A stretch of 64,000 nucleotides of DNA. Source: Parerythrobacter lacustris. Lineage in GTDB: Bacteria > Pseudomonadota > Alphaproteobacteria > Sphingomonadales > Sphingomonadaceae. The stretch covers positions 186,001 to 250,000 of the forward strand of contig NZ_JANKHH010000001.1 in NCBI RefSeq assembly GCF_024626475.1, given 5' to 3'. The notes under the pieces are model-generated. The model was not told where the DNA came from and made no database searches. It was given only the letters and a program-made list of their open reading frames with translations. Both the position numbers and the translations under genes were made by a program. Within the stretch, counting starts at the first letter, position 1. Each line of letters begins with the position of its first letter. This document shows, in pieces, positions 11,316 to 14,629 of this stretch.

Positions 11316-12110
11316 TCAGAGATCGAACTCCGTCGTCAGCGGGATGTGGTCGCTCGGCCTGTCCCAGTCGCGCGCATCCTCGAACACGCGGTGCCCGATC
11401 GCCTGTCTGGCGAGCTCCGGGCTGGCCCACATATGGTCGAGCCGCCTTCCCCGGTCCCCGTCGCGCCAGTTCTTCGCGCGGTAGCTCCACCAGCTGTAAT
11501 AGCGTTCGGGATCGCGGATATGCTCGCGCCCGATGTCGGACCAGCCATGCGCATCCCGGAACCTCTGCAGCGTATCCACTTCGATCGGCGTGTGGCTGAC
11601 CACCTTGAGCAATTGCTTGTGATTCCACACGTCGCTCTCGAGCGGGGCGATGTTGAAATCGCCGACGATCAGCGTGGGCCGGTCGACCTTGTCGGCCCAA
11701 CGGGTCATTCGCTCGAGGAAATCGAGCTTCTGACCGAACTTCGGATTGATCGCGCGGTCGGGCTCGTCTCCGCCGGCGGGAATATAGACGTTCTCGAGGA
11801 TCATCCCCCTGCCCGGCCCGAGCAGCTCGACCCCGACATGGCGCGCCTCGCCATTGTCCTGCCAGTCATGCCGGGAAAACTCGGCGAGGGGGATGCGGCT
11901 GACGGTCGCCACCCCATGATAGCCCTTCTGCCCATGCACCGCGAAATGCTCGTACCCCAGCGCGCGGAACGCATCGTAAGGAAACTGCGGTTCCTGGCAC
12001 TTTATCTCCTGCAGGCACAATACGTCGGGCGATTGCTCCTGAATGAAGCGTTCGACGATAGGCATCCGCAGGCGGACTGAGTTGATGTTCCAGGTGGTGA
12101 TCGTGACCAT
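11316..12110 (-). CDS. xthA: Exodeoxyribonuclease III
   Basis: A 264-residue AP endonuclease / 3' exonuclease of base-excision repair, normal length. MVTITTWNINSVRLRM at the N-terminus, CLQEIKCQE (catalytic Glu), IVGDFNIAP (metal Asp/Asn) and the C-terminal WDRPSDHIPL (catalytic Asp-His) are all intact. The ATG at 12110 opens directly into the conserved core; the frame extends 36 nt further upstream. Pairing with ribA is a common arrangement in related genomes and probably an operon. Divergent from the alkaline phosphatase gene. Confidence 0.95.
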   Translation of the reverse strand: MVTITTWNINSVRLRMPIVERFIQEQSPDVLCLQEIKCQEPQFPYDAFRALGYEHFAVHGQKGYHGVATVSRIPLAEFSRHDWQDNGEARHVGVELLGPGRGMILENVYIPAGGDEPDRAINPKFGQKLDFLERMTRWADKVDRPTLIVGDFNIAPLESDVWNHKQLLKVVSHTPIEVDTLQRFRDAHGWSDIGREHIRDPERYYSWWSYRAKNWRDGDRGRRLDHMWASPELARQAIGHRVFEDARDWDRPSDHIPLTTEFDL

Positions 12111-12214
12111 GCGGGCTGCTTTAGGTGGCACAATCCGCGCCAGCAAGGCAGTGCAACATTGCGGTCATGACAAATCGTCATACCATTCACTGCAACATAG
12201 ACTTGGAGGCATCG

Positions 12215-13666
12215 ATGCAGCGCACCACCAATCTGATCGCCATGGCCGCCTGCCTTGCCGTGCCGCTGGGGACTTTGGCCATTCCGGCCGCTGCCCAGGA
12301 CGGCGGCTCGCCGCGATCTGCGACTGACCAGACACCGGCACCGCGCGCGAAGAACGTAATCCTCTTCATCGGCGACGGGATGGGGGTATCCACGGTCACG
12401 GCGGCGCGCATCTATGCCGGCCAGAAGCTGGGCCAGACCGGTGAGGAATATGTTCTGCCATTCGAGACATTCCAGAATGTCGCGCTGGTCAAGACCTATA
12501 ACACCAATGCGCAGGTGCCCGACAGTGCCGGAACCGCGAGCGCGATGCACACCGGCGTCAAGACGAAGATCGGCGTGCTCGGATACGGTCCAGAGATCAC
12601 TACCGGAGATTGCGCCTCGGCCGTGGGCCGCGAGCTGCCGTTGCTGGGTGCCGAAGCTACCGAGCGCGGGCTTGGATTGGGCATCGTCAGCACCGCGCGA
12701 ATCACCCACGCGACGCCTGCGGCGGTCTATGCGCACAGCGTGTCGCGCGACTGGGAAGCCGACGCGGCCATCCCCGAAGGGCAACGCGGGATCGGCTGCG
12801 AGGATATCGCCAGCCAGCTGGTCAATGCGCGCTTCGATGTCGCGCTGGGCGGCGGCAAGGCGGCATTCTTCGGCAAGGCGAACGGCGGCCAGCGACTTGT
12901 CGAGTCGGCAGACTTGCCCGGCGCGTGGCAGGCGGCGAGCGGGGGCACCTATGTCCAGACCGCGCAAGAACTGGCGGCAGCCCCGACCGGCAAGCCGGTG
13001 CTCGGCCTGTTTGCGCCCAGCCACATGAGCTATATGGTCGACCGCCAGCCCGAAAGCAGCGAGCCCACCCTGACCGAAATGACCGAAGCGGCGGTCGGTC
13101 GCCTGAAGAGCGATCCCGACGGCTACTATCTGATGGTGGAAAGCGGGCGGATCGACCATGCGCACCACGCCGGGCAGGCCGGCTATGCGCTCGAGGAAGC
13201 GGTTGAATTCGCCCGGGCGATCCAATGGGCCCTCGATCATACCGATCCGGCGGAGACGCTGATCCTGGTCACCGCCGACCACAGCCATGTTTTTACCATC
13301 GCGGGCTATCCAAGGCGCGGCAACGATATCCTCGGCCATGTCATTCCGCCCGAAGGCGGGGGCGAGGATGGCGGCGATAGCGATGGCGGGCCGACGCTGG
13401 CGCGGGATGGCAAACCCTACACCACTTTGTCCTATGCCAACGGACCGGGCGCAGTGGCACACGATGCCGAGGAGGGGCGACCGATCCCCGAGACGGGGGT
13501 CCGGGCGTATCAGCAGGCAGCGGTCCCACTCGGCTCTGAAACCCATGCGGGCGAAGATGTGGCGCTTTATGCCAGCGGGCCGGGAGCGGAACGCGTGCGC
13601 GGGGAGATGGAGCAGAACCGGATACACGACGTGATCCGCGCCGCCTTTGGCTGGACCGATAGATAG
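12215..13666 (+). CDS. Secreted alkaline phosphatase (PhoA family)
   Basis: A 483-residue phosphomonoesterase of the alkaline phosphatase superfamily, exported by an N-terminal signal (NLIAMAACLAVPLGTLAIPAAAQ). Metal ligands and nucleophile are present: FIGDGMGVS, VPDSAGTASAMHTGVKT with nucleophilic Ser104 (precursor numbering), ESGRIDHAHHAG and TADHSHVF. The ATG at 12215 is preceded by TTGGAGGC. It should release phosphate from organic esters in the periplasm or outside. The upstream region has GTCAT half-sites at 12163 and 12176, 13 bp apart rather than the 11 expected of a Pho box, so PhoB control is uncertain. Confidence 0.93.
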   Translation: MQRTTNLIAMAACLAVPLGTLAIPAAAQDGGSPRSATDQTPAPRAKNVILFIGDGMGVSTVTAARIYAGQKLGQTGEEYVLPFETFQNVALVKTYNTNAQVPDSAGTASAMHTGVKTKIGVLGYGPEITTGDCASAVGRELPLLGAEATERGLGLGIVSTARITHATPAAVYAHSVSRDWEADAAIPEGQRGIGCEDIASQLVNARFDVALGGGKAAFFGKANGGQRLVESADLPGAWQAASGGTYVQTAQELAAAPTGKPVLGLFAPSHMSYMVDRQPESSEPTLTEMTEAAVGRLKSDPDGYYLMVESGRIDHAHHAGQAGYALEEAVEFARAIQWALDHTDPAETLILVTADHSHVFTIAGYPRRGNDILGHVIPPEGGGEDGGDSDGGPTLARDGKPYTTLSYANGPGAVAHDAEEGRPIPETGVRAYQQAAVPLGSETHAGEDVALYASGPGAERVRGEMEQNRIHDVIRAAFGWTDR

Positions 13667-13687: not shown

Positions 13688-13724
13688 AAAAAACCCTCGT
13701 GCCGGGGGCATTGGCACGAGGGTT
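13688..13724 (-). terminator. Strong Rho-independent terminator (minus strand)
   Basis: CCCTCGTGCC (13694-13703) and GGCACGAGGG (13713-13722) form a perfect 10-bp stem with a 9-nt loop. On the minus strand the stem is followed by six T (13693-13688). In the plus direction only two T follow, so it ends minus-strand transcripts: lolA or the RNA candidate just upstream of it. Confidence 0.85.
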
Positions 13725-13811
13725 CCATGTTAGCGTTCGTCACGCTTGGACAAAGCGGCCTGTTAAAGGAGGCTGAGGCAACAGGGGGGAAACCCGCCTC
13801 CGACCGCTTTG
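13688..13811 (-). ncRNA. Candidate structured RNA with pseudoknot, between lolA and its terminator
   Basis: This interval lies downstream of the lolA stop. P1 pairs 13751-13758 (CAAAGCGG) with 13804-13811 (CCGCTTTG). Inside it, 13759-13764 (CCTGTT) pairs with 13780-13785 (AACAGG), and 13768-13773 (GGAGGC) pairs with 13796-13801 (GCCTCC). The last two cross, giving an H-type pseudoknot closed by an 8-bp stem. A further 5-bp hairpin (13732-13736 with 13742-13746) and the T6 terminator follow in minus orientation. It could be an independent small RNA or a structured lolA 3' UTR. I do not recognise a known family, and no promoter is convincing. Confidence 0.5.
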
Positions 13812-13902
13812 TTGATTACAAACTACGCCTCACGGCCTTGCTCGTGAATGAACAATCGCACGCGGCTTGTCGCATTCTTACAACGATCAGCCGCCGAAGC
13901 GA

Positions 13903-14559
13903 TCAGTTGGGGCGACGAGTGGTGCGGCGCGGATCGCGGTAGGTGAAAGTGCTGTCCGCCACCGCGACTCCGTAGCGGTGATTACGCAGCCGCACCGTGG
14001 TCCGGTTGTTCTGCGAATCGAGTGCGACCCAGTTGGTCAGCTGCAATCCGCCCGGCGCGCTGGAGCTGGGCACGAAGATCAGCGTGATCACGCCGTACTC
14101 GGGCTTGTTCGGATCCTTGACCTCGACGCTGACCACCTTGGGGTCGTTGGTCGGGACGAGGCGGCCATAGCGCTTCACGTCACGATTGGGATCGAGCAGC
14201 GCGCCGAGCGGCGAATTGCTGATCGGCCAGCGCTGGACCTGATTTACCTCATAATCGATCAGGGTGAGCGACTTGCCGTTCGAAACCAGCAGCATCGGCA
14301 CCCCCTTCTCGTACTGGAAGCGGATCTTGCCCGGGCGCTTGAGCGTGAGCTTACCGGCCACCGTCTGGCCCTGCCGGTCGGTCTGGGTGAAGTCCGCCGT
14401 CATGGTCGAGATCCCGCGCAGGGCGGTCACCGCTTTGTCGAGATCGCCCGCAGCCGCCACGGCGGGCGTGCTGGCGGTCATCGTGACAGCGGGGGCTCCA
14501 AGCGCCAGCGCGGCGGCAATCGCGCCGAGCAGCGGTTTCGATTTGAGTTTTGAGATCAT
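13903..14559 (-). CDS. lolA: Outer-membrane lipoprotein carrier protein LolA
   Basis: A 218-residue periplasmic chaperone that carries lipoproteins from LolCDE to the outer membrane. Signal peptide GAIAAALALGAPAVTMTASTPAVAAA; the mature part shows LolA hallmarks: LRGISTMTADFTQTDRQGQTVAGKLTLKRPGKIRFQYEKG, LVSNGKSLTLIDYEVNQV, and ITLIFVPSSSAPGGLQLTNWVALDSQNNRTTVRL. The ATG at 14559 is preferred because GGAG lies 7 nt upstream; the ATG at 14565 is only one base from it. A structured interval and a strong terminator follow. rpmG lies upstream on the same strand. Confidence 0.93.
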   Translation of the reverse strand: MISKLKSKPLLGAIAAALALGAPAVTMTASTPAVAAAGDLDKAVTALRGISTMTADFTQTDRQGQTVAGKLTLKRPGKIRFQYEKGVPMLLVSNGKSLTLIDYEVNQVQRWPISNSPLGALLDPNRDVKRYGRLVPTNDPKVVSVEVKDPNKPEYGVITLIFVPSSSAPGGLQLTNWVALDSQNNRTTVRLRNHRYGVAVADSTFTYRDPRRTTRRPN

Positions 14560-14629
14560 GTTCATGCTCCGTCATCTAGCGTCGGAGCGTTGAACGGTCA
14601 CTGAACTTTTGCGGTTCCCGCGGTTCAGC

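Follow-up and report, generated by a model that had tools for sequence, protein, structure and literature searches.

The minus strand downstream of lolA in Parerythrobacter lacustris probably encodes an independently transcribed, trans-acting small RNA (sRNA) of ~125 nt that is conserved across its family, is the lolA-xthA counterpart of RusT from Caulobacter crescentus, and acts on envelope mRNAs; we give this reading as a whole a probability of roughly 0.68. It builds on conservation, a nested fold, synteny, a promoter-like element, and loop complementarity, all of which were observed in the sequences compared. A trans-acting sRNA is of an ordinary kind, but this one is very well conserved, and its position is that of an sRNA already known to respond to iron.

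Genomic setting and conservation

All coordinates refer to the window, the whole 64,000-nt stretch of P. lacustris DNA that was analyzed. The RNA gene and its neighbors are as follows.

13903 to 14565, minus strand: lolA, the upstream neighbor (Pfam LolA, 1e-23)
13688 to 13812, minus strand: small RNA gene, ~125 nt, bounded by the foot of P1 and the last T of T6 and delimited by blastn conservation, alignment, and a covariance model, with its 5' end placed from the -10-like box
12125 to 13666, plus strand: alkaline phosphatase gene (Pfam Alk_phosphatase, 3e-116), convergent with the RNA
11316 to 12146, minus strand: xthA (exonuclease III family; Pfam Exo_endo_phos), the usual downstream neighbor, which adjoins the RNA in most other genomes

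A blastn search with a 223-nt stretch against 59 relatives found homologues in many genera of the host family (Sphingomonadaceae in the GTDB sense), and the conserved part spans query positions 91 to 217, that is, 13812 to 13686 of the window. We picked 80 lolA loci independently, by LolA protein alone; 74 of them carry the RNA by blastn and five more (L091, L093, L103, L106, and L107) by covariance model. The RNA lies downstream of lolA at 79 of the 79 testable loci, the 80th (L037) being a contig that ends 124 bases past the lolA match. A covariance model, R1, matched 211 of 213 sampled host-family genomes at E<=0.01, nearly always once and on the lolA strand, and one of the two genomes that it missed (G103) was recovered with laxer filters. 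The window RNA scores 134.6 bits against R1, a model that includes the window sequence itself among its sequences. Homologues are 105 to 137 nt long, with the terminator stem conserved. In two other families of the order, R1 gave weak matches that are syntenic (L203 and L206 adjoin lolA and xthA; L205 is near xthA), and the RNA is probably also present in other Sphingomonadales. There was no convincing R1 match outside the order; the matches at L144 and L145 are not near lolA or xthA and were treated as chance.

In nearly all distant members, the RNA has lolA on one side and xthA on the other and is encoded by the same strand as lolA. The window departs from the arrangement in most of the family, where lolA, the RNA, and xthA are adjacent, in that the alkaline phosphatase gene splits the RNA from xthA. 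With a same-strand xthA coming next in most genomes, the RNA might be read as a cis-acting element (a riboswitch or attenuator) in the xthA leader. The intervening alkaline phosphatase gene argues against this, since the RNA is intact in the window despite a convergent gene before xthA. In addition, the aligned sequences retain a full terminator, and it is the hairpin loops that are conserved. We therefore regard an xthA leader as very improbable.

Nested fold and covariation

The minus-strand RNA can be divided into the following parts.

13802 to 13812, minus strand: P1 5' arm, pairing with 13750 to 13760 over 11 bp including one G-U; double-sided changes occur at every P1 pair
13796 to 13801, minus strand: P2 5' arm GGAGGC, pairing with 13768 to 13773; covariation
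13779 to 13792, minus strand: C-rich loop UUUCCCCCCUGUUG, the proposed seed; near-invariant in 86 homologues
13768 to 13773, minus strand: P2 3' arm GCCTCC; covariation
13759 to 13764, minus strand: AACAGG, the second strand of a crossing helix suggested in the preliminary description; not conserved
13750 to 13760, minus strand: P1 3' arm; covariation
13732 to 13746, minus strand: hairpin 2, AGCGUGACGAACGCU; GCGTGACGAACGC is invariant in 70 of 70 aligned sequences
13688 to 13724, minus strand: intrinsic terminator with a 12-bp stem, loop AAUGCCCCC, and T6; stem cells are 99.5% paired, with compensatory changes

On the minus strand, the 215-nt stretch folds with a z score of -5.2 relative to shuffles, none of 200 of which folded as well. 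Single-sequence folds of the 86 homologues mostly share a nested P1, a 3'-side bulge, P2, P3, and the C-rich loop. Across 70 aligned sequences, 28 of 36 nested pairs have double-sided changes, compared with 19.3 in shuffles, and the covariation score is 0.304 versus 0.163 when shuffled (0 of 500 shuffles as high); the signal was lost when the partners were slid by 1 to 3 columns. When a deeper set of 54 sequences was fitted to the model, both partners varied in 35 of 36 pairs (score, 0.568 versus 0.184), in an alignment that leans toward the covariance model used to fit it. The alignment of homologues sets a near-invariant loop, TTTCCCCCCTGTTG, among variable stems; the loop core CCCCCTGTT is retained family-wide, and the terminator loop GCCCCCG (also given as UGCCCCC) is invariant. 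These comparisons strongly support a nested conserved fold, predicted as a long hairpin with the UUUCCCCCCUGUUG loop, the AGCGUGACGAACGCU hairpin, and the terminator.

The preliminary description, made from the letters of this DNA alone, had taken an H-type pseudoknot to be the functional fold. The helices it listed are all there: the 8-bp closing stem (13751 to 13758 with 13804 to 13811), which extends to 11 bp (13750 to 13760 with 13802 to 13812, with one G-U); the two perfect 6-bp crossing helices (13759 to 13764 with 13780 to 13785, and 13768 to 13773 with 13796 to 13801); the 5-bp hairpin AGCGU-GACGA-ACGCU (13732 to 13746); and the minus-strand T6 terminator, whose stem is 12 bp (13688 to 13724). 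The nested helices covary within a stretch that folds far better than its shuffles, but the argument that such helices could not be accidental fails for the crossing pair. Some crossing pair of perfect 6-bp helices arises in 398 of 500 dinucleotide shuffles of the whole 215 nt. The perfect 6-bp crossing helix in the window does look unusual against a chosen 45-nt core, only 4 of 3,000 shuffles of which contain a crossing 6-bp pair.

The homologues decide against the pseudoknot. The columns of the crossing helix CCUGUU/AACAGG are 60.6% paired versus 60.3% in shuffles, with 296 of 500 shuffles at least as high, so the covariation check separates nested helices that covary from a crossing helix that equals its shuffles. 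One strand of that helix, CCTGTT (13780 to 13785), lies inside the C-rich loop, and it is invariant because it is part of this exposed loop; an intact 6-bp partner for it occurs in only 3 of 85 homologues. Further, forming the crossing helix would disrupt inner P1 and P3 pairs that covary. Because crossing pairs are common in shuffles, and because this one shows no covariation and has an intact partner in 3 of 85 homologues, we consider the pseudoknot a coincidence at the level of the species, or no more than an addition peculiar to it, and its role as the functional fold is hardly credible.

Promoter-like element upstream of the RNA

Two conserved boxes precede P1.

13820 to 13825, minus strand: -10-like box TAGTTT; the TA is conserved at a fixed distance from P1
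13836 to 13853, minus strand: conserved upstream element GTTCATTCACGAGCAAGG, with consensus GTTCAtt-N5-GNAAGC (GTTCAT-N6-GNAAGC); overlaps the -35 position

TTCA is found 36 to 47 nt before P1, nearly always at 40 to 42 nt, in 86 of 86 sequences, and the TA box lies ~14 nt before P1. The upstream element was also present in 33 of 37 distant homologues. Given the conservation of the element and the TA box at fixed distances, the RNA is probably transcribed independently. GTTCAtt-N5-GNAAGC is a probable candidate for a regulator site, and its overlap with the -35 position, as counted from the TA box, would fit a regulated promoter. In the rest of the host genome, a pattern like it has eight exact sites versus five for the control, which is not clearly above control.

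The alternative source of the transcript is lolA itself: read-through to the terminator, with the 3' end then cut off, would leave a processed or stable lolA 3' untranslated region (UTR), serving as a 3'-UTR-derived sRNA or as protection of the mRNA end. The geometry allows it, in that the RNA is always linked to lolA, lies on the same strand directly downstream (lolA stop at 13903, RNA from ~13812), and is separated from lolA by no terminator. A processing product, however, has no need of GTTCAT-N6-GNAAGC and TA boxes held at fixed distances in 86 of 86 sequences, and RusT, which shares this locus, is transcribed from a separate NtrX-bound promoter (PMC11005374). We thus judge a 3' UTR origin to be rather improbable. 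Where the preliminary description had left the choice between an independent sRNA and a processed lolA 3' UTR open, the promoter-like element at a fixed distance (86 of 86) favors the former and disfavors the latter, although read-through from lolA may add to the RNA. That description's discrete, terminated regulatory RNA on the minus strand downstream of lolA is likewise supported by the family-wide conservation and the nested covariation.

Relation to RusT

RusT (CCNA_R0199) of C. crescentus is a 118-nt Hfq-bound sRNA from the lolA-xth intergenic region; it is repressed by NtrX, induced by iron starvation, and Hfq dependent, and it uses a C-rich hairpin-loop seed (C53) to repress TonB-dependent receptors and OmpW (PMC11005374). 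Like RusT, the sphingomonad RNA occupies the lolA-xth gap in the orientation of lolA (with xthA displaced by the alkaline phosphatase gene in the window), is ~120 nt long from its inferred 5' end to a Rho-independent terminator, and has a C-rich hairpin loop among its best-conserved parts; outer-membrane receptor mRNAs are plausible targets for it as well. Unlike RusT, the sphingomonad RNA has the loop UUUCCCCCCUGUUG where RusT has CUAUCCCCUC, three hairpins rather than four, and a different conserved promoter element. Apart from the C-rich loops, the two RNAs show no detectable sequence homology, and R1 gave ~5 to 25 bits at RusT positions, the level of GC-rich terminators.

Genomes that we take to be Caulobacteraceae were assigned from CtrA identity, with a CtrA query that is 87% identical to the protein of G376, together with the gene order and content of the fetched lolA-xth gaps. 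The Rfam families CC2171 (RF01867) and ceN33 (RF01866) proved uninformative as markers of this family, and CtrA and gap content were used instead. In most of these presumed Caulobacteraceae gaps, the hairpin GCCGG-CTATCCCCTC-CCGGC is accompanied by a terminator and a promoter-like box; the sphingomonad promoter element was not above chance in them (median P, 0.5). Among lolA-xth gaps with room, lolA-strand C-rich hairpin loops were found in six genomes from five further families (L249, L266, L267, L272, L302, and L332), and shuffles of those six gaps yield a C-rich loop in 20 to 60% of cases, so that each gap alone is weak evidence. The same six gaps mostly contain a terminator-like hairpin, and some have a RusT-like GCCGG..TCCCCTC..CCGGC hairpin. 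The case for homology with RusT would rest not on sequence but on the shared locus, the similar size and orientation, and the presence of a C-rich loop, and the best reading of the sphingomonad RNA is as the positional counterpart of RusT.

Loop complementarity and candidate targets

The word AACAGGGGG is the complement of the invariant loop core, CCCCCUGUU. Genome-wide in the host, AACAGGGGG is not enriched, with 19 sites (13 + 6) versus 20 (11 + 9) for the reversed word. Four host AACAGGGGG sites fall 15 to 19 nt before start codons; one of the genes that follow encodes a trypsin-like secreted protein and another a GGDEF-EAL protein, and the products of the other two have no Pfam match. In 59 genomes of the family, CAACAGGGGG stands 3 to 12 nt ahead of an ATG at 47 sites, versus 2 for the reversed pattern, a control that ignores the G-richness of ribosome-binding sites. 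Predicted loop-target duplexes have energies of -19 to -25 kcal/mol.

Among 30 loci with perfect loop complements at start codons, which yielded ~23 genes in a usable reading frame, four encode TonB-dependent receptors by Pfam (L419, L423, L436, and L442). For Sphingobium SYK-6, 74 TonB-dependent receptor genes are reported (PMC6874591). Set against the usual total gene number, they give an expected share of ~2% (binomial P of ~0.001 for the four receptors); four is a small count, and G-richness is a general property of ribosome-binding sites. No orthologous receptor recurred as a target in several genomes. The excess of receptors among the complements supports RusT-like targets but does not prove them.

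Two other gene groups carry the complement. CAACAGGGGG lies at the ribosome-binding site of a conserved family of ~174 amino acids without a Pfam match in two genera including that of the host (L431:627-1148, plus strand; L427:979-1503, minus strand), a possible conserved target. GGDEF-EAL or EAL genes with CAACAGGGGG just before the start codon occur in the host and another genus (L404 and L443).

We propose the following mechanism, in which expression, the part of Hfq, the targets, and the inducing signal are inferred. Transcription probably starts ~7 nt past the TAGTTT box and is probably switched by a regulator that binds GTTCAT-N6-GNAAGC. The first hairpin would display the unpaired UUUCCCCCCUGUUG loop, which would most likely pair with G-rich ribosome-binding sites, where CAACAGGGGG precedes the ATG, in mRNAs that encode envelope proteins, TonB-dependent receptors among them. 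This pairing, with Hfq, would probably block translation.

Comparison with other sRNAs

The preliminary description recognized no known family, and the Rfam search that it proposed agrees: Rfam 15 returned no family at gathering score and none at E<=10. GsrN of Caulobacteraceae, with proposed relatives in Rhizobiaceae, is usually encoded near the general stress genes ecfG, nepR, and phyR (C. crescentus gsrN being an exception) and has an EcfG/SigT promoter; its 5' C-rich loop pairs with a G-tract in a target mRNA leader (PMC5869019). The sphingomonad RNA shares the C-rich loop with GsrN but sits at lolA-xthA and not near ecfG, nepR, or phyR. ChvR of Caulobacter is also a small trans-acting RNA that represses a TonB-dependent receptor via stem-loops, yet it is encoded at another locus, upstream of recF, and is 84 nt, Hfq independent, C. 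crescentus specific, and ChvI controlled (PMC6237742). SuhB of Sphingopyxis granuli, an Hfq-dependent trans-acting sRNA conserved in Sphingopyxis, is 61 nt (PMC6563040), whereas the sphingomonad RNA is ~125 nt and lacks an Rfam match even at E<=10. No RNA linked to lolA was found in the passages covered from the tetralin/SuhB review or from papers on Zymomonas sRNAs. Judged by Rfam and the open-access literature, the RNA is apparently undescribed.

A trans-acting RNA at this position could have another role, acting on stress genes in the manner of GsrN or as a sponge for G-rich RNAs, and its sharing of a locus with RusT would then be coincidental. The lack of sequence similarity to RusT is in keeping with this, as is the C-rich loop of GsrN together with the reported lack of an apparent gsrN-like gene in Erythrobacter litoralis, which would leave that role free (PMC5869019). 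Against a coincidence, Caulobacteraceae share the intergenic slot, size, orientation, and C-rich loop; C-rich loops appear in another five families wherever the gap between lolA and xth is long enough; and receptor genes are overrepresented among the best complements. We consider such a role unlikely and prefer a RusT counterpart acting on envelope mRNAs.

Implications

Tentatively, and at somewhat less than even odds, the lolA-xth gap may hold an ancient alphaproteobacterial sRNA gene, spanning Sphingomonadales, Caulobacterales, and several other families, whose C-rich loop has been retuned in each order while the job of remodeling the outer-membrane receptor set was kept; the sphingomonad RNA with its C6-UGUUG loop would then regulate TonB-dependent receptors throughout the order, a role not described before. 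As degraders of pollutants and lignin, sphingomonads are important, and many of their substrates enter via dozens of TonB-dependent receptors. Few sphingomonad sRNAs have been characterized, examples being SuhB in Sphingopyxis and several in Zymomonas. A single-copy RNA that is present in ~99% of the sampled family genomes, is absent from Rfam, and has a clear candidate seed is a directly testable candidate regulator. Its sharing of a locus with RusT suggests that one sRNA gene was maintained across alphaproteobacteria even as the sequence drifted apart.
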